Assembly (NCBI RefSeq): GCF_003130405.1
Contig: NZ_QEAS01000001.1
Location: forward strand, 331,314 to 395,313
DNA length: 64,000 bases
Source: Pararcticibacter amylolyticus
GTDB taxonomy: Bacteria > Bacteroidota > Bacteroidia > Sphingobacteriales > Sphingobacteriaceae
Reading direction: 5' to 3'
Shown: positions 4,222 through 64,000 of the stretch, one piece after another
Layout of the letters: the number at the start of each line of letters is the position of its first letter
Position numbering within the stretch: position 1 is the stretch's first letter
Translations under genes and position numbers: made by a program
The notes under the pieces: model-generated
Seen by the model: the letters and a program-made list of their open reading frames with translations, nothing else
What the model was told of the DNA's origin: nothing
Database searches by the model: none

Positions 4222-5775
4222 CTACCGCGGGCTATACGAAACATACGGAACGATCATCTCTTCTAAAGAAATTCCCCCGTGTTGAAAGGTCTCATTATAA
4301 TAATTAACAAAGTGATTGTAATTATTCGGATAAACGAAATAGCTGTCCTCTTTCGCGAAAATAAAACTTGAACTGACATGAAGTTTCGGCAATAAAGCTT
4401 CATGAGGGTTTTTAATGTGAAAGACTTCTTTAGGAGTAAAATTGAGATTCTTTCCCTGTTTATAACGAAGATTTGTATTTGTATTCCGGTCTCCAATGAC
4501 TTTGCTTGGATGCTTTACCCGGATCGTACCATGGTCGGTGGTTATGACAAGCTTTACATTCTTTTGAGCGAGCTTTTTGAGCAGCTCAAGCAGGGGAGAA
4601 TGTATAAACCAGGATAATGTCAGTGACCTGTAGGCTGCTTCATCATTCGCCAGTTCCCTGATCATGGCCATATCGGTCCTGGCGTGCGACAACATGTCAA
4701 CAAAATTATACACGATGACATTGAGTTCATTTCCCATAAGGTTGTTGAAATTGTCGACAAGCTCTTTTCCTTGTTCATAAGTCAGGATCTTGTTATAAGA
4801 ATGTTTTAACTCCCTTCGTGCAACCCTTTGTACCTGATCGGCCAGAAACTGTTCTTCAAATAAGTTCTTTCCCCCCTCATCTTCGTCATTCTGCCACATC
4901 GACGGATATCGTTTCTCCATATCAAGGGGCAATAGACCGGAAAAGATCGCATTCCTTGCATATTGTGTTGCCGTAGGCAGTATGCTGTAATAAGTATCTT
5001 CCTCGTCTGCCCTAAAATTCTCGGTTATAATCGAGTTGATCACCTTCCATTGATCATAGCGTAAGTTATCTATGAGAATAAAAAATGTAGGCTTCGACGT
5101 TTCCAGCGAAGGAAACAATTTCCGCCTGAGTAACTGATGCGACATAACCGGCCCTTCATCCGGGTTTTTTATCCAGCTGAGATAATTCTTTTCAATGAAT
5201 TTTGAGAACTGAACATTTGCCTCCGCCTTCTGCATAGTCAGAATCTCATGCATTCCTGCATCCTCAAGCTTCTCAAGCGACAATTCCCAAAAGACCAGTT
5301 TCTTATAAATTTCTACCCATTCGGTAAAATTCAGGTTGTCATTCAGCGTCATGCCCAGGTTACGGAAGTCCTGCTGATAGGCCATGGATGTTTTCTCGCT
5401 GATCAGCCTTTTATTTTCAGTCAGCTTCTTGATGGTCAACTGGATTTGCCGTGGATTTACCGGCTTGATCAGATAATCGTCAATCTTTGAACCGATTGCA
5501 TCTTCCATAAGATATTCTTCTTCGTTCTTCGTTATGAGAACTATCGGAATGTCGGGATTCAGGTTTTTGATTTCGGCAAGCGTTTCGAGGCCTGTAAGCC
5601 CAGGCATGTTTTCATCAAGAAATATGATATCAAAATATCCCTCTTTAAAAGCCTCGACAGCATCACGCCCGTTAGTTACCGTTTTTACTTCGTATCCCTT
5701 TTCTTTGAGAAACATTATATGGGGCTTTAAAAAGTCTATTTCATCATCTGCCCATAATATTGTGGTTTCCTGCAT
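4222..5775 (-). CDS. porX: PorX-type response regulator with PglZ/alkaline-phosphatase-like output domain
   Basis: The 517 residues match the size and layout of Porphyromonas gingivalis PorX, the response regulator linked to the type IX secretion system. Residues 1-120 are a CheY-like receiver with the acidic pair D10/D11, phospho-acceptor D54 in FLDENMPG, T82 and K104 in YLIKP. The remainder is a PglZ-domain phosphatase of the alkaline phosphatase superfamily; FILIDNLRYDQW and VITTDHGTIRVKHP hold likely metal-binding aspartate and histidine residues. PorX homologues hydrolyse cyclic and linear oligonucleotides in published work. No histidine kinase is adjacent. The gene is divergent from the HD hydrolase gene, and the 104 bp between them carry both promoters. 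Confidence 0.9.
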   Translation of the reverse strand: MQETTILWADDEIDFLKPHIMFLKEKGYEVKTVTNGRDAVEAFKEGYFDIIFLDENMPGLTGLETLAEIKNLNPDIPIVLITKNEEEYLMEDAIGSKIDDYLIKPVNPRQIQLTIKKLTENKRLISEKTSMAYQQDFRNLGMTLNDNLNFTEWVEIYKKLVFWELSLEKLEDAGMHEILTMQKAEANVQFSKFIEKNYLSWIKNPDEGPVMSHQLLRRKLFPSLETSKPTFFILIDNLRYDQWKVINSIITENFRADEEDTYYSILPTATQYARNAIFSGLLPLDMEKRYPSMWQNDEDEGGKNLFEEQFLADQVQRVARRELKHSYNKILTYEQGKELVDNFNNLMGNELNVIVYNFVDMLSHARTDMAMIRELANDEAAYRSLTLSWFIHSPLLELLKKLAQKNVKLVITTDHGTIRVKHPSKVIGDRNTNTNLRYKQGKNLNFTPKEVFHIKNPHEALLPKLHVSSSFIFAKEDSYFVYPNNYNHFVNYYNETFQHGGISLEEMIVPYVSYSPR

Positions 5776-57013: not shown

Positions 57014-57508
57014 CACGGGCGCTGTTCTTTTACTTGCCTTATCTTTCTTAAGAAAGAACTGAAACTGAATTATCTTGATATGAAAATAAAATAGCCTCTA
57101 AATTATTCATTTAGAGGCTATTTTATTTTTGTTACCCTTAATGTCGGGATGGCAGGATGCATCTCCGACGCTCTAAATCATTGATTTACAATGCCGTTCT
57201 TCTTGACTCAGGAATGAGGGTGTGAATTAGGGCATTTTTTGAAAAACTTCTGAATGAACTATTGACGCACTCGCAGCTCTTAATTTGCGTTCGGCGCTTA
57301 TCAAAAATAAGGATTAAAAAACATAGTAACAAACAGCTATTCTGTAAAATATCTCCCCCTTTGTAACAGAAAACGCGGTTCAGTGGTCACAATAGTAACC
57401 AGCGTTCAAGCGGTATTGTAAAAATTCGTAATTTTCACTTTCCTAACTAAGACCCTGTCCTTTAAATGAGTTTGAATATATGTATAACCCGCACTGGCAA
57501 GAACGGAG
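57014..57508. other. Non-coding stretch between aldo/keto reductase and pseudogene
   Basis: A 495-bp stretch with the terminator described separately and a 15-bp inverted repeat TAAATCA-T-TGATTTA (57174-57188). No ORF of substance, no clear RNA and no recognisable insertion-sequence end. It looks like rearranged or decayed sequence. Confidence 0.45.
57083..57129 (+). terminator. Terminator after the aldo/keto reductase
   Basis: A 21-bp perfect stem (57083-57103 with 57109-57129, centred on ATAGCCTCTAAAT) with a 5-nt loop TATTC and a T-rich end. It lies about 70 bp after the stop codon. Confidence 0.85.
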
Positions 57509-57823
57509 ATGAAAAGAAGCACAGATATAGAAGCGAAGCTTCACGAAGTTCTTTCTCTAAGCTATTAAACAGAAGTCGTAGAATTTAAAGAAGCAAAAAA
57601 CACCTACGACTTTGATAGACTGGGCAAATACTTCTCAACTCTTTGTAACGAGGCTAATCTAAAAAGACAGACTGCAGGCTGGCTTGTGTTGGGCGTTAAG
57701 GACAAGAGTATAGTTGGTACTACTTTCAGAAGTAATCCTGTGGGAATGCATAGTCTTAAAGCAGAAATCGCGGATCATACAACTGGACGCTTAAAATCTT
57801 ACCAATTGGTAAGATTTGCTTAA
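57509..57823 (+). pseudogene. AlbA_2-domain protein, N-terminal remnant with nonsense mutation
   Basis: Read from ATG 57509, the frame gives KLHEVLSLSY, then TAA (57566-57568), then TEVVEFKEAKNTYDFDRLGKY, NEANLKRQTAGWLVLGVKD and IVGTTFR, ending at TAA 57821. The blocks VEFKEAK, YFSTLCNEANL and GWLVLGV are the AlbA_2 (schlafen-type AAA_4-associated DNA-binding) N-terminal domain. The internal TAA stands where the family usually has a glutamate codon, so a single GAA-to-TAA change is enough to explain it. Similarity stops after TTGRLKS, exactly where the 24-bp palindrome begins, and the rest of the gene is missing. Such proteins often accompany restriction and mobile loci. Confidence 0.7.
57794..57817. 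promoter_or_regulatory. Perfect 24-bp palindrome, candidate operator
   Basis: AAATCTTACCAATTGGTAAGATTT is perfectly self-complementary over 24 bp (core TTACCAATTGGTAA). A second half-site TTACCAAT lies at 57843-57850, between it and the first gene of the restriction-like module (57865). No repressor gene is adjacent in the window. Confidence 0.5.
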
Positions 57824-57864: not shown

Positions 57865-58548
57865 ATGATGAGTCAAAAATTACCACCTGAGGCAGGCAAA
57901 ATGACTTCGTTTCAGGTATTTCGCGATCAATTAGTTATCGATAAAGCTATTCAGTTAGATATCGAAGGAAAGTACAGTACGCCAGAACAGATTCGGGCGG
58001 TGAAGAACGATATTTTCCAGGAGTTGATCAGTAATGAAAAGTTCCACTTTCACTCCAGCAAGTCGGAAATTACTTCTGAGCTGATGTATTCAGATGCCAA
58101 CCTCTCTTACTTCAAAGTAGGGGTAAAAAGGAACCTGAAAAACATTAGCAAAGGTTTTTCGGAAGACGCAAAAGAAAGCTCCCCCAACATCATTGTCGTT
58201 ATTAATAACGAGCCGAACGTCCAGAAAATAGCAATACAGACGAATACGAATGCATTCAAGAGCAGTAATATCGTAAGCCATTTCAATGAGGAAACGATTG
58301 ATCGCAAGCTGAAATCTAAGAAACTGTCCTTTTTCGTTGAACCGATGTTCGACAAGCAGGAGTTCTGGAACATGGTGGAGAAATATCAGAAGCGCATTAA
58401 AAAAGTCACTTTCGATTTGATTTCTCCTAATCGGCCTGAAGTTTCTAAGAATCTTACTGTAGATTTGAACCTTAAACAGCTTTACGAAGACACCGGTACG
58501 CTAAAAACCGAGTTGGAGTTGGGTACTAATGAAGGCAAGGGAATTTAG
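57865..58548 (+). CDS. Unrecognised 227-residue protein of the restriction-like module
   Basis: No signal peptide or membrane helix, so the protein is probably cytoplasmic. It has a mixed alpha/beta composition with blocks such as FQVFRDQLVIDKAIQLDIEG, PNIIVVINNEPNVQKIAIQTN, FFVEPMFDKQEFWNMVEKYQKRI and KKVTFDLISPN. I recognise no named domain, and it is not an obvious nuclease, methylase or helicase. It precedes the PLD-helicase by 77 bp in the same direction, so it is likely part of the same transcript. A reading-frame change near its end would fuse it to the 30-codon frame at 58529-58621; this cannot be settled from the sequence alone. Confidence 0.75.
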   Translation: MMSQKLPPEAGKMTSFQVFRDQLVIDKAIQLDIEGKYSTPEQIRAVKNDIFQELISNEKFHFHSSKSEITSELMYSDANLSYFKVGVKRNLKNISKGFSEDAKESSPNIIVVINNEPNVQKIAIQTNTNAFKSSNIVSHFNEETIDRKLKSKKLSFFVEPMFDKQEFWNMVEKYQKRIKKVTFDLISPNRPEVSKNLTVDLNLKQLYEDTGTLKTELELGTNEGKGI

Positions 58549-58621
58549 CGTAGGGGAACAGTTATTAAAGTCTAATGATTGGGATACTCTGAATGAAGCG
58601 TTTAAAGATATTTTGATATAG
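58529..58621 (+). CDS. Possible 30-codon ORF overlapping the preceding gene
   Basis: In the +1 frame an ATG at 58529 opens MKAREFSVGEQLLKSNDW and continues to a TAG at 58619-58621, 4 bp before the helicase start. It overlaps the end of the 227-residue gene by 20 bp. The composition is protein-like, but it could instead be the displaced C-terminus of the 227-residue protein after a frameshift, or chance. Confidence 0.3.
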   Translation: MKAREFSVGEQLLKSNDWDTLNEAFKDILI

Positions 58622-58625
58622 ATAA

Positions 58626-61600
58626 ATGCCCAAAATCTACGATAATATAGAGCAACATCTCTCAAAAGGCCTAAATGAAACACTTGGTGTATCAACTAGA
58701 ACAGATTTATGTGTTGGATACTTTAACCTGAGAGGATGGACTCAAATTGGCGCTAACATAGATAATCTTTGTGGAGAACCGGTATTGGAGTCATCGGTAG
58801 AAGTTCACCGATGCTGCCGACTCTTAGTTGGAATGCAGAAAATGCCCTTAGATATTCTAAAGGAAAGCTTTAATCACGACGAGGATATCATTGACCAGGC
58901 TGCAGCTGTAAAACTGAAGCGAAAATTAGCTCTAGAGTTCAAAGAACAGTTAACAATTGGTACTCCTACTTCGGATGACGAAAGAGCCCTTCGGTTATTG
59001 AGTAAGCAGATGAAGGAAAAGAAGGTAGTTGTTAAGCTTCATTTGCGGTATCCACTACACGCAAAACTCTATCTATGCTACTTAAAAGATAGAGGCCGGA
59101 TCGAAGGATATGTAGGTAGCAGTAATTTAACTCTGGCCGGCCTCTCAAAACAAGGAGAGTTAAACGTAGACGTCGAGGAGCAAGATGCGGGAAAAAAACT
59201 TGTCAAATGGTTTGAAGACAGATGGCAAGACAGATGGTGTTTTGATATCACCGACGACTTAATAGATATAATAGATAATAGCTGGGCAGCAGATAAATTA
59301 TACAGCCCTTATCATATCTATCTAAAAATGGCATATCATTTAGCTAGGGAGGCGCGGGCAGGTATAAATGAGTTTAAACTACCTAAGATCTTCGAGAGGG
59401 ACCTACTAGAATTTCAGCAAAAAGCTGTGTTAGTTGCAGCGCATCATTTACATAAACGAAATGGTGTTATGATTGGCGATGTTGTGGGATTAGGAAAAAC
59501 CATCACAGCTACAGCCCTGGCTAAAATATTCAATGACGATTTCTTTTTGGAGATTCTCATTATATGCCCGAAGAACTTAGTCGAGATGTGGGAAGACTAT
59601 GCCCATAGGTATCAATTATCTGCGTTCAAAATAATTCCTCAGAGTCAAGTTCAAACAAAGCTGCCAATTTTGCGGCGTTATAGGCTGGTAATTATTGATG
59701 AAAGCCATAATTTAAGAAACGACCAGGGCAGCCGATACAGGGCAATCAAATCATATCTGGAGGAAAATGAAAGTAAGGTCATCTTACTTTCCGCAACACC
59801 TTATAACAAATCATACATAGACCTTTCAAGTCAACTGAGGTTATTTATTCCTGACGAACAAGATTTAGGTATTAGTCCAGAGAGATATTTAGAGTCAATT
59901 GGTGGCAAGGTTCAGTTCGAAGTGAAGCATTCGAGCTTTGTTCGGAGCATTAAAGCCTTTGAACATAGTCACTTCGCTGATGATTGGCGTGAATTGATGA
60001 GGTTGTTTTTGGTAAGAAGAACGCGCAGTTTCATTAAACAAAACTATGCGCAACTGGATGAGGATAAAGGAAGGCGTTACCTAACCTTTTCCGATGGAAG
60101 CCGCTCTTACTTCCCGGACAGGATACCCAGAAAAGTTGAATACAAGTTCGACCCGGAAGATCCTAAAGACCAATACGCAAAGCTGTATTCCCAGCAGGTA
60201 GTTGCAATAATCAATCAATTGAACGTTCCTCGCTATGGCCTGGGCAACTACTTAGAGGATAAGCCGATTGTTAAAGCAACAAAAGAAGAAGAGAATATTA
60301 TTACTAATCTAAGCAGAGCCGGCAAGCGGTTAATGGGTTTCTGCCGCACTAATCTCTTCAAAAGATTAGAAAGTAGCGGTTATTCGTTTTTACTATCTCT
60401 AAGTAGGCATATTCTTAGGAACTACATCTTTATTTATGCAATTGAAAATAGACTCCCCCTGCCTATTGGCAAAAACGTTTCACATAATCTGGATGAATTT
60501 TTAGATGATGAAGATTTTGACAAGATAGACGGGGATGTATTTCTAAATCTAATTTTAAGCGAGGAAGTCTATTTATCCCAAGCGAAAAGAGTTTATAACT
60601 TATACTGTTCAGATAAATATAAAAAGAAGTTTGAATGGATTAAATCAGAGTTGTTCACTAAAGCTCTTCAAAAAAAATTAATTGAAGATAGTCGGGCAAT
60701 TATTGAAATATTAGAACTCGGCAAAGATTGGAATCCCGATGAGGATAAGCAATTGAATGCGCTTTATCATTTGGTGAATCATACCCACAAAGGCGAAAAG
60801 GTTCTGATTTTTACCCAATTCGCAGACACAGCACTTTATCTATTCCAGCAATTAAAAAATAGAAATATTGAGCAGATAGATTATGTTACTGGTGATGTAG
60901 AAAGCCCTACTGCTGTTGCCCACAGATTTAGCCCGGTAAGCAATAAAAAATCTTTAAAGCCTGGCGAAGAAATCAGAATATTGATTACTACTGACGTTTT
61001 AAGTGAGGGGCAAAACCTACAAGATTCACACATAATACTCAACTATGATCTGCCCTGGGCAATTATACGTCTAATACAGCGGGCAGGTAGGGTTGACCGG
61101 ATTGGGCAAAAAGCGGATAAAATATTCTGTTATTCCTTTCTGCCAGAAGATGGTATTGAACGAATTATTAACTTACGAAGAACCCTAACTAATCGAATTA
61201 GAGAGAATGCCGAAGTAGTGGGCTCTGACGAGACTTTTTTCGAAGGCGACCCGGTGAGTATGCACGACTTGTACAATGAAAGCTCGGGCATTTTAGAAGA
61301 AAGTGATGACGATACCGAAGTTGACTTGGCCTCATATGCTTACCAGATCTGGAAAAATGCCACTGATGCCGACCCCTCTTTAACTAAAATAATCCCCGAC
61401 TTACCAAATGTAGTGTATGCAACAAAAGAGAACGGAGAAGCGCCAGAAAAAGAAGGTGTAATAGTTTACAGTCGCACAGTAGAAGATAACGACGTTCTAG
61501 CTTGGCTTAACCCCAGAGGGGCTGTAATAACAAATTCTCAATTAGCAATCTTAAAAGCCAGCCAATGTAACGCTCATACTCAACCTCTGTATAAAATTGA

Positions 61601-61982
61601 TAGCCATCATGAATTAGTGGCCAGGGCTATAGAAGTTATACGTGAAGAAGAGAAAACCTCGGGCGGTACACTAGGTAAAAAGGCGGGTGTGAAATACAGG
61701 GTTTATATGAGGTTAGATAGATATGTCAAAGAATTTGAGGGCACAATATTCGTGACTGATGGATTGAAAAAAGCAATCGATGATATCTACAAATTTCCAC
61801 TAAAAGAATTTGCAAAAGACACTTTGAATAGGCAAATGAAATCTGGTATTGATGATAACGAATTAGCATCATTAGTAATATCATTAAGGGAAGATGATAA
61901 GCTTTGCCATGTAAATTATGAAGACCAGCCGCTCCGCGAACCTCAAATTATCTGTTCTCTGGGCTTAAAAACATTATCATAA
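58626..61982 (+). CDS. PLD-nuclease/SNF2-helicase fusion protein
   Basis: The 1118-residue protein joins two enzymatic modules. Residues about 15-215 are a phospholipase D-like domain with the H-x-K motif at H145-A-K147 and the partner block YVGSSNLTLAGL. A superfamily-2 SNF2/DEAD helicase follows: the Q-like FQQKAVLVAAHHL, Walker A GDVVGLGKT (K291), Walker B DESH (358-361), SATPYN, and later VLIFTQFADTALYLF, ITTDVLSEGQNLQ and QRAGRVDRIGQ (Q818-R822). A helical C-terminal domain of about 290 residues has no motif I know. Only one PLD motif is present, so a dimer may form the active site. The next gene, a DNA methyltransferase, starts directly after its stop. A role in DNA restriction is inferred. 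Confidence 0.9.
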   Translation: MPKIYDNIEQHLSKGLNETLGVSTRTDLCVGYFNLRGWTQIGANIDNLCGEPVLESSVEVHRCCRLLVGMQKMPLDILKESFNHDEDIIDQAAAVKLKRKLALEFKEQLTIGTPTSDDERALRLLSKQMKEKKVVVKLHLRYPLHAKLYLCYLKDRGRIEGYVGSSNLTLAGLSKQGELNVDVEEQDAGKKLVKWFEDRWQDRWCFDITDDLIDIIDNSWAADKLYSPYHIYLKMAYHLAREARAGINEFKLPKIFERDLLEFQQKAVLVAAHHLHKRNGVMIGDVVGLGKTITATALAKIFNDDFFLEILIICPKNLVEMWEDYAHRYQLSAFKIIPQSQVQTKLPILRRYRLVIIDESHNLRNDQGSRYRAIKSYLEENESKVILLSATPYNKSYIDLSSQLRLFIPDEQDLGISPERYLESIGGKVQFEVKHSSFVRSIKAFEHSHFADDWRELMRLFLVRRTRSFIKQNYAQLDEDKGRRYLTFSDGSRSYFPDRIPRKVEYKFDPEDPKDQYAKLYSQQVVAIINQLNVPRYGLGNYLEDKPIVKATKEEENIITNLSRAGKRLMGFCRTNLFKRLESSGYSFLLSLSRHILRNYIFIYAIENRLPLPIGKNVSHNLDEFLDDEDFDKIDGDVFLNLILSEEVYLSQAKRVYNLYCSDKYKKKFEWIKSELFTKALQKKLIEDSRAIIEILELGKDWNPDEDKQLNALYHLVNHTHKGEKVLIFTQFADTALYLFQQLKNRNIEQIDYVTGDVESPTAVAHRFSPVSNKKSLKPGEEIRILITTDVLSEGQNLQDSHIILNYDLPWAIIRLIQRAGRVDRIGQKADKIFCYSFLPEDGIERIINLRRTLTNRIRENAEVVGSDETFFEGDPVSMHDLYNESSGILEESDDDTEVDLASYAYQIWKNATDADPSLTKIIPDLPNVVYATKENGEAPEKEGVIVYSRTVEDNDVLAWLNPRGAVITNSQLAILKASQCNAHTQPLYKIDSHHELVARAIEVIREEEKTSGGTLGKKAGVKYRVYMRLDRYVKEFEGTIFVTDGLKKAIDDIYKFPLKEFAKDTLNRQMKSGIDDNELASLVISLREDDKLCHVNYEDQPLREPQIICSLGLKTLS

Positions 61983-64000
61983 ATGAAACTGAATATTGAT
62001 GCCGCTCGAAACCTGCTGCAGGCCTTCGATTTCAAAACATTATTTAGGGAAGAATTAGGTTGGAATAATCCTGCGTCAAAAGCTAAGCAACCTTTCCAAA
62101 CTAAACATGGCCTATTTTTTAGAGAAGCTATCGCAGATTTATCCGGTGCAACAGTTTACGAAATCACTAATGACGAAGGCACTATTCCTGATTCATCTAT
62201 AAGGGCGTTAATTTCCGCTGAAATCCAAAAAATAAGCTTTCACCATATTTTAATCTTTGTTGATAAAAGCAGAAGTCAATCATTCTGGAGATGGTTAAAA
62301 AGACAAGATAAAAAAAGCCTGCCTAGGGAACATACTTTCTTTGCGGGGCAAACGGGCGATGCGTTCATTTCAAAAATATCCAGCTTAATGGTGGATTTAA
62401 GCGAGATAGAAAACGACATTACCATCACCGATGCGGCGAAAAAGATTCAGGACGCCTTAGACGTAGAGAGAGTAACAAAACAGTTTTTCACCGATTATCA
62501 GCAGCAGTTTATTGATTTTTTACCGCTGATAGAAGGGATACCGGATGAAAACGACAAGCGTTGGTATGCATCGGTAATTCTTAACCGGCTAATGTTTATC
62601 TATTTCTTGCAGAAAAAAGGGTTCATTGATAACGGTAACCTGGATTACTTATACAAGAAGCTGCTTGAAACTCAGGACAAATACGGTGACGATAAATATT
62701 ACGATGTTTTCTTAAAAACCTTGTTTTTTGAAGGCTTTGCCAAACCGGATGCCGAACGAAGCCAGTTCGCAAACGAGCTTCTAGGGAAAATCAAATACTT
62801 AAACGGCGGTCTTTTCCTCAAACACAAGATAGAAGAAAAATATCCCGGAATAAATATCCCGGATATCGCTTTTATAAACTTGCTAAAAGTCGACGAGCCA
62901 AAAGGATTATTTGAACAGTTCAGTTGGAGTTTAGATGATACACCAGGAGGTAAAGACGATGAAATCAATCCGGACGTTTTAGGTTATATTTTCGAAAAAT
63001 ATATTAATCAGAAAGCATTCGGCGCTTACTACACCCGAACCGAAATAACCGAATACCTCTGCGAGCAAACAGTTTATAAGCTGATATTAGATGCGGTAAA
63101 CGGACCTGAAATCGACGTAGAAACCTTAAAAAAGGCAGGATTAGACAAAGGGGAAAAGGAAAGACGTTTTAACTCCATAGAAGAACTTTTTTTAGGACTT
63201 GATGCAAAAATCTGTGCCAAGTTGGTTATGGGCGAAAACGCTGTTTTACCTAGCTTGAGTTTGCTTGACCCTGCCTGCGGTTCGGGTGCCTTTTTGGTTG
63301 CGGCTATGAAAACGCTGATAAACGTTTATGCTGCCATAATAGGCCGTATCAGTTTTTTAAACGACCGGAAATTATTAGACTGGCAAAATACTATACAGGA
63401 AGATCACCCAAGTATCAACTACTACATTAAGAAACAGATCATCACTAATAATCTGTACGGTGTAGATATTATGGAAGAAGCTACTGAAATAGCCAAACTC
63501 CGCTTATTTCTTGCCCTCGTTTCCAGTGCAAACAACGTAGATGATTTAGAACCGCTGCCTAATATTGATTTCAACATCATGAACGGCAATTCACTAATTG
63601 GGATGATGCGGGTAGACCCGGATAAATTTAATACGCATTACAACAACCCATCAAAGGCGCCAGCTGGAAAAGTAGTTCGAAAAGGGAATTTGTTTGAACC
63701 TGCACTTATACAGGGCAATATGTTTTCCGAAACCTATGCAAAAAGCTACCAGCAATTGATAAACGAAAAGGAAGCAGCCATTACAGCGTATAAAAAAGCA
63801 CAAGGGCTTGGCTATGAAGGTTTGCAAAGTTTAAGGAACAGCATACAGGAAAGTGAAAAGAAGGCGGCTAAGATTTTAAATAAATTATTGGTTGATGAGT
63901 TTCAGAATTTAAGCATCCCCTACAGCGAATGCACTTGGGATGCGGAGAACAAAAAAGAGGGTAAATTAAAAAAACGTCCTATCAAAATAGAAGACATCGA
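61983..64000 (+). CDS. Eco57I/PglX-like adenine DNA methyltransferase (C-terminus beyond the window)
   Basis: The frame opens with an ATG directly after the helicase stop and stays open for 672 codons to the right edge. Residues 1-200 form a variable domain with TLFREELGWN and HILIFVDKSRSQSFW, seen in long restriction-methylase proteins. The middle helical region (RWYASVILNRLMFIYFLQKKGFI, INPDVLGYIFEKYINQK, FGAYYTRTEITEYLC) is typical of Eco57I-type enzymes. The AdoMet motif I is DPACGSGAFL at residues 429-438, and YGVDIMEEATEIAKLRLFLAL matches motif III-like sequence. The NPPY catalytic motif and any fused nuclease or specificity domain would lie past the edge. Likely product: N6-adenine methylase, possibly type IIG or DISARM/BREX-like. 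Confidence 0.9.
   Translation, partial: MKLNIDAARNLLQAFDFKTLFREELGWNNPASKAKQPFQTKHGLFFREAIADLSGATVYEITNDEGTIPDSSIRALISAEIQKISFHHILIFVDKSRSQSFWRWLKRQDKKSLPREHTFFAGQTGDAFISKISSLMVDLSEIENDITITDAAKKIQDALDVERVTKQFFTDYQQQFIDFLPLIEGIPDENDKRWYASVILNRLMFIYFLQKKGFIDNGNLDYLYKKLLETQDKYGDDKYYDVFLKTLFFEGFAKPDAERSQFANELLGKIKYLNGGLFLKHKIEEKYPGINIPDIAFINLLKVDEPKGLFEQFSWSLDDTPGGKDDEINPDVLGYIFEKYINQKAFGAYYTRTEITEYLCEQTVYKLILDAVNGPEIDVETLKKAGLDKGEKERRFNSIEELFLGLDAKICAKLVMGENAVLPSLSLLDPACGSGAFLVAAMKTLINVYAAIIGRISFLNDRKLLDWQNTIQEDHPSINYYIKKQIITNNLYGVDIMEEATEIAKLRLFLALVSSANNVDDLEPLPNIDFNIMNGNSLIGMMRVDPDKFNTHYNNPSKAPAGKVVRKGNLFEPALIQGNMFSETYAKSYQQLINEKEAAITAYKKAQGLGYEGLQSLRNSIQESEKKAAKILNKLLVDEFQNLSIPYSECTWDAENKKEGKLKKRPIKIEDI

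Follow-up and report, generated by a model that had tools for sequence, protein, structure and literature searches.

A predicted minimal two-gene ATP-dependent restriction-modification system, formed by a PLD-SNF2 helicase and an Eco57I-like methylase, carried with Septu and GmrSD-type genes on a tRNA-Pro element

The right end of the window (the whole 64,000-nt stretch analysed here, C1:331314-395313 of a Bacteroidota chromosome) raises the question of which of its genes belong to a restriction or anti-phage system, and to which one. Three + strand ORFs are present there, of 227 aa (57865-58548), of 1118 aa (58626-61982) and a third that is open-ended from 61983. The initial annotation had described them as same-strand genes combining a PLD-SNF2 fusion with an Eco57I-like methylase; the ORFs were confirmed, the corresponding domains were found with Pfam, and the suggestion of a restriction or anti-phage module is well supported. 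The region to the right of the window was read on the same contig (locus L005, in which a position equals the window position minus 56686). The reading that we favour, with a probability of about 0.68, is that the helicase and the methylase form the core as a minimal two-gene ATP-dependent restriction-modification system, and that Septu and a GmrSD-type gene found further downstream are independent cargo on an element inserted in tRNA-Pro.

The 1118-aa protein (58626-61982, + strand) is the predicted restriction and translocation subunit, as judged by its Pfam, PADLOC and NCBIfam domains. In Pfam it matches RE_NgoFVII (E=8e-9), PLDc_2 (E=2e-6), and SNF2-rel and Helicase_C (E=2e-16). The PLD active-site stretch, H145-x-K147 followed by G164-S-S-N167, is encoded at 59058-59126 (+), and H145, K147, G164, S165, S166 and N167 are invariant in 38/38 rows of the helicase alignment. 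The SF2/SNF2 motor extends over 59475-61109 (+) and carries motifs that are invariant, or almost so, among 38 relatives: motif I GDVVGLGKT (residues 284-292), motif II DESH (358-361), motif III ATP (390-392) and motifs V/VI TDVLSEGQNLQ (789-799) and QRAGRVDRIGQ (818-828). Identity reaches at least 95% at 363 of the 1118 helicase columns, PLD and motor residues among them. A fold model of moderate confidence (pLDDT 73, pTM 0.60, residues 165-185 of the PLD region falling below 50) matches the SNF2 motors CSB, RapA and Sulfolobus SWI2/SNF2. Searches of the 1118- and 227-residue proteins against family models had been proposed initially as a check: for the helicase, the best PADLOC match was the 'HKD+Snf2' model C3a139 (164 bits, residues 127-956), alongside DrmD matches that are considered further down, and gene 1 had no match in Pfam or PADLOC, its single NCBIfam match lying far under the cut-off.

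The window holds the first 672 of the 1353 codons of the third gene (61983-64000, +), whose end lies near 66044 in extended coordinates. Once the contig is extended, the full protein of 1353 aa is an Eco57I/MmeI-type N6-adenine methylase, composed of an N-terminal alpha/beta and helical region, the methylase core, a putative target-recognition region, placed by position and variability, and a C-terminal Schlafen AlbA_2 domain (1201-1337). It matches Eco57I (E=9e-27), MmeI_Mtase and SLFN_AlbA_2 (E=2e-18), and motif I (DPACGSGAF, 429-437) and the NPP motif (700-702) are conserved. One could read this protein as a self-contained Type IIG restriction enzyme, with the helicase as an auxiliary and not as the nuclease, since PADLOC assigns it to REase_MTase_IIG (379 bits) and a nuclease domain at the N-terminus is a feature of Type IIG enzymes. 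However, no conserved acidic-lysine (D/E...K) nuclease pattern was found in residues 1-135 across 41 relatives, which makes the PLD domain, whose residues are invariant in the partner protein, the only conserved nuclease candidate. A fold search with a model of residues 1-420 (pLDDT 83) returned neither a nuclease nor any confident structural match, so that the N-terminus may hide a nuclease; searched against PDB sequences, neither the methylase nor a profile of its N-terminus gave a match. A Type IIG enzyme with an auxiliary helicase thus appears unlikely, and we retain the PLD-SNF2 protein as the predicted nuclease of a two-gene system.

How constant is this partnership? Helicase relatives numbered 285 when one genome per species was scanned, and the best 80 (53-73% identity over full length) were kept. 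Of these best 80 of 285, 73 carry a same-strand methylase gene downstream of the helicase gene, and in 54 of those 73 no more than 38 bp separate the two. Six of the seven relatives lacking a methylase run into contig ends, and only L081 offers room, about 1.2 kb, without one. The linkage of helicase and methylase is far beyond chance. Judged by record titles and tree labels, hosts of the best 80 span more than 20 bacterial phyla, including Bacteroidota, Thermodesulfobacteriota, Nitrospirota, Planctomycetota, Chloroflexota, Acidobacteriota, Pseudomonadota, Bacillota and Verrucomicrobiota. Helicase relatives were also found in 36 plasmid records, and the pair was together in the three plasmid regions examined (3/3: Synechocystis pSYSX, Pelobacter pPRO1 and Rhodococcus pR1CP2); the helicase search of 50,697 phage records gave no match. 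On pSYSX, a ThiF adenylyltransferase, E2-like and multiubiquitin cluster, which resembles a ubiquitin-like conjugation operon, adjoins the pair (L129 16924-19545).

The first gene was initially counted as part of the system, and here the evidence points the other way. Gene 1 (57865-58548, +) is a C-terminally truncated copy of a family of about 290 aa: in the alignment its homologues are longer, with 291 aa in L036, where the gene lies directly upstream of the same helicase-methylase pair, and 285 aa in L119. Part of the missing C-terminus persists out of frame at 58538-58621 (+), where reading frame 2 (REFSVGEQLLKSNDWDTLNEAFKDILI, followed by a stop) corresponds to the C-terminal end of the homologue in L036 (EFSIEDKLLKDNNWEELDKQFKDILI). 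Gene 1 adjoins the pair in 1/80 of the relatives' loci (best 80 of 285) and is matched in 3 of 395 Bacteroidota genomes, the source genome included. Since it is a truncated accessory beside the pair in so few relatives, its candidacy as a conserved component was rejected; it is probably decayed and inactive. Absence of linkage in related genomes, named at the outset as an observation that would count against a module, is thus found for gene 1 but not for the helicase and the methylase. Pfam gave nothing significant for the full-length gene 1 homologues. In L119 (8289-9571), the 285-aa homologue is unlinked to the pair and overlaps the gene of a 143-aa probable membrane protein, with which it may form a separate two-gene unit.

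It had also been anticipated that drmA and drmB could follow past the right edge. The extension shows other genes instead. After the methylase, the + strand encodes a 391-aa ATPase, PtuA (E=1e-108), a 220-aa HNH-type protein, PtuB (E=3e-65), whose ORF overlaps that of PtuA, and a 565-aa GmrSD_N/GmrSD_C protein. PtuA and PtuB are adjacent and matched the Septu models of PADLOC, which identifies them as Septu. Beyond the GmrSD-like gene, the opposite strand carries a 289-aa unknown protein, a HigB/HigA-like pair, a relaxase and a tyrosine integrase. The HigB-HigA-like pair (L005 14588-15378) gave PADLOC matches to PD-Lambda-2 A and B (E=2e-23 and 2e-20). Directly 3' of the GmrSD gene, at L005 12914-13210 (window ~69600-69896), frame fragments resembling a decayed Fic-family protein (ALAELNGVAETIPN motif) were noticed by eye.

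Helicase, methylase, PtuA, PtuB and GmrSD-type protein could be thought to form a single multi-protein system, with Septu and GmrSD as its obligate effectors. The intergenic gaps along this run (0, 11, -20 and 20 bp) suggest co-transcription, and no terminator-like site was found on the + strand between these five genes. Nevertheless, no close PtuA-PtuB pair occurs at this position in 80 loci (best 80 of 285), where the place is filled by unrelated cargo, and PtuA and PtuB match the models of a system known in its own right. We regard a single five-gene system as quite unlikely, and read Septu (PtuA-PtuB) and the GmrSD-type protein as probable independent cargo in an accessory slot beside the two-gene core.

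The relatives give this slot its outline. A short DprA-like gene (PF02481, weak to moderate scores) lies downstream of the methylase in 33 loci (best 80 of 285), for example at L047 14153-14647 and L096 16593-17207, and in 23/33 of them cargo stands between the methylase and the DprA-like gene, a cargo locus being one with at least one same-strand ORF of at least 90 aa (L043, with a single 96-aa ORF, was left out of the count). This cargo includes DarT-DarG, AAA+DUF4276, OLD, SIR2+HerA, a YhcG nuclease and HNH proteins, as well as a PLD protein, putAbiC, PIN proteins, RhuM and RhuM-Fic. When complete methylases were sorted by BLAST score, two classes were obtained, M1 with 10 members, the methylase of the window among them, and M0 with 42. 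The DprA-like gene accompanies 32/42 M0 against 1/9 M1 methylases in the classified loci, and in M1 loci without DprA such cargo genes are likewise found directly 3' of the methylase. In the window locus, Septu and the GmrSD-type protein sit at the cargo position and the DprA-like gene is absent. As 33 relatives have this gene and the window locus does not, a third component may be required in some lineages.

The whole locus appears to be mobile. An 18-bp direct repeat (ATGTCGGGATGGCAGGAT) at 57141-57158 marks the left boundary (attL) of an integrated element, the repeat being exact at L005 455 and 18910; its right copy (extended coordinates ~75596-75613) overlaps a tRNA-Pro(ggg) gene at the 3' end (L005 18912-18986, minus strand), and this tRNA gene adjoins the integrase. 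Because the integrase adjoins tRNA-Pro and an exact 18-bp copy of the tRNA 3' end lies at the left boundary, the sequence indicates that the locus is carried by a mobilisable element, about 18.5 kb long, that has inserted in tRNA-Pro. Between attL and gene 1, at L005 ~800-1100 (window ~57486-57786), an apparent broken Schlafen AlbA_2 gene (VVEFKEAKNTYDFDRLGKYFSTLCNEAN...) was seen by eye.

Does the helicase keep to one kind of methylase? On the helicase tree, methylase class changes at least 7 times, compared with 9-10 for most of 300 label shuffles, and class is therefore close to randomly scattered over the tree. Within one helicase lineage, carriers of different methylase classes share 66% helicase identity, against 66-67% within a class, whereas the identity of the methylase core falls from 62-69% within a class to 34% between classes. 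For the same methylase class across helicase lineages, core identity stays at 54-55%. Conservation is lowest in the putative target-recognition region, with 12-14% identity between classes and 24-32% within M0. These comparisons indicate that the methylase is an exchangeable module on a conserved helicase. In L103 (9283-11484) and L113 (18512-19546), helicase and class M1 methylase are followed by fragments of a second, M0-like methylase gene, a possible exchange intermediate.

A mode of action can be proposed for the pair. The methylase would mark one strand of the host DNA at an asymmetric site; at unmethylated sites it would recruit or load the PLD-SNF2 protein, which would move along DNA using ATP, and a PLD dimer would cut, most likely where two motors meet, by analogy with Type III and Type ISP enzymes. 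An indirect link to one-strand methylation comes from Synechocystis, where the pSYSX methylase belongs to the family of the window methylase. When genes are counted back from slr6095, the type I M gene at 88 kb, their numbering puts this homologue at the likely position of slr6050. M.Ssp6803IV was reportedly assigned to slr6050 by Hagemann et al. in 2018. No mention of slr6050 was found in the open-licence papers searched. In Synechocystis 6803, a one-strand GA(m6A)GGC mark has been attributed to M.Ssp6803IV (PMC7296061). Via this link, and by analogy, the pair would also methylate one strand. Replication of a site marked on one strand only produces one unmethylated daughter. Type III and Type ISP enzymes cope with this because they need two sites in inverted orientation; by the same analogy, a requirement for two inverted sites would be expected of the window pair.

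If the two-gene reading is true, the pair would be among the simplest ATP-dependent restriction systems, with one conserved cutting motor and one swappable methylase, and would offer a direct way to test how one motor responds to different methylases and whether PLD nucleases cut by motor collision. The variable slot would make a compact restriction-modification operon the carrier of other defence units. With annotation as it stands, the pair would be recorded as a generic helicase next to an orphan Type IIG methylase. A broader proposal, for which we see even odds, is that a near-invariant PLD-SNF2 'engine' accepting interchangeable methylase/specificity modules constitutes an unnamed two-component ATP-dependent restriction-modification class in more than 20 phyla, its operon serving as a docking slot for defence and toxin-antitoxin modules and the DprA-like gene being a frequent third part.

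It remains to place the pair among known systems. DISARM class 1 has a comparable set of parts, a SNF2 helicase (DrmD-like), an Eco57I-type adenine methylase (DrmMI-like) and a PLD nuclease, and the locus was initially thought to be a possible variant of it; it could be a fragment in which the PLD protein DrmC became fused to DrmD beside DrmMI. The helicase does match DrmD models, at 127 bits in PADLOC and 132.7 bits in NCBIfam, and there is a weak DrmMI match for the methylase. However, the NCBIfam score is far under the DrmD cut-off of 610, PLD is fused to the helicase here, no DrmA or DrmB gene lies within 25 kb to the right of the locus, and the whole source genome gave no MZB/DUF1998 (DrmB-type) match while control genomes were positive. 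This origin is highly improbable and has already been largely refuted. As for BREX itself, no PglZ was found at the locus; the sole match in the genome is a 519-aa frame (window 4510-5088, minus strand) about 53 kb away, which by its length is likely PorX.

With Type IIG enzymes, the methylase shares an adenine methylase and a probable target-recognition region in one chain, together with its Eco57I/MmeI_Mtase and REase_MTase_IIG matches. In Type ISP (LlaGI/LlaBIII) and Type III systems, a target-recognising methylase works together with a nuclease and a DNA motor driven by ATP. The pair would resemble them in having a methylase with target recognition, an ATP motor, a nuclease and probably one-strand methylation, but it consists of two polypeptides, with a PLD instead of a PD-(D/E)XK nuclease and a SNF2-family motor. 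A PLD-type nuclease acting with an SF2 motor in an ATP-dependent manner is also described for SauUSI (Type IV, PMC7913695) and CglI/NgoAVII (PMC4267653, PMC5737866). SauUSI differs in attacking modified DNA and is not known to have a methylase, and CglI/NgoAVII differ in having nuclease and DEAD-family protein as separate chains. The PADLOC 'HKD+Snf2' model, although the best match of the helicase, covers the helicase alone, and the PADLOC results define no pair system on it.

The same two-part logic is described for BREX-related Type-2 (Hma-like) systems, which pair an N6-methylase with a Swi2/Snf2 helicase bearing a fused HKD nuclease at its N-terminus (PMC12839542). An HKD/PLD domain fused N-terminally to a Swi2/Snf2 helicase, next to an N6-adenine methylase in a restriction-modification-like arrangement, is what was found here as well, and the helicase matches HmaA weakly in PADLOC. 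The pair could accordingly be such a system that has lost its ATPase. Those systems are, however, built around a DUF499 AAA+ ATPase, nearly always with DUF3780 (PMC12839542). DUF499 is absent from the source genome and from 30 of 35 genomes with the pair, being elsewhere in the genome in the other 5, and DUF3780 gave no match among the neighbourhood genes scanned with Pfam. Moreover, no large third gene recurs beside the relatives (best 80 of 285), which speaks against this origin and against DISARM alike; a Type-2 system deprived of its ATPase is, in our estimate, improbable. Membership in DISARM, BREX and Hma was rejected by whole-genome family searches, and because the genome is without DUF499 and DrmB, the two-gene system is neither Hma/BREX-related Type 2 nor DISARM. 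No open-licence paper describing the pair was found in a literature search for the DprA, SNF2 and methylase combination, and an earlier description, for example in REBASE, is possible. Taken together, the pair is apparently an unnamed system, which would work like BREX-related Type 2/Hma systems but is not a member of them.
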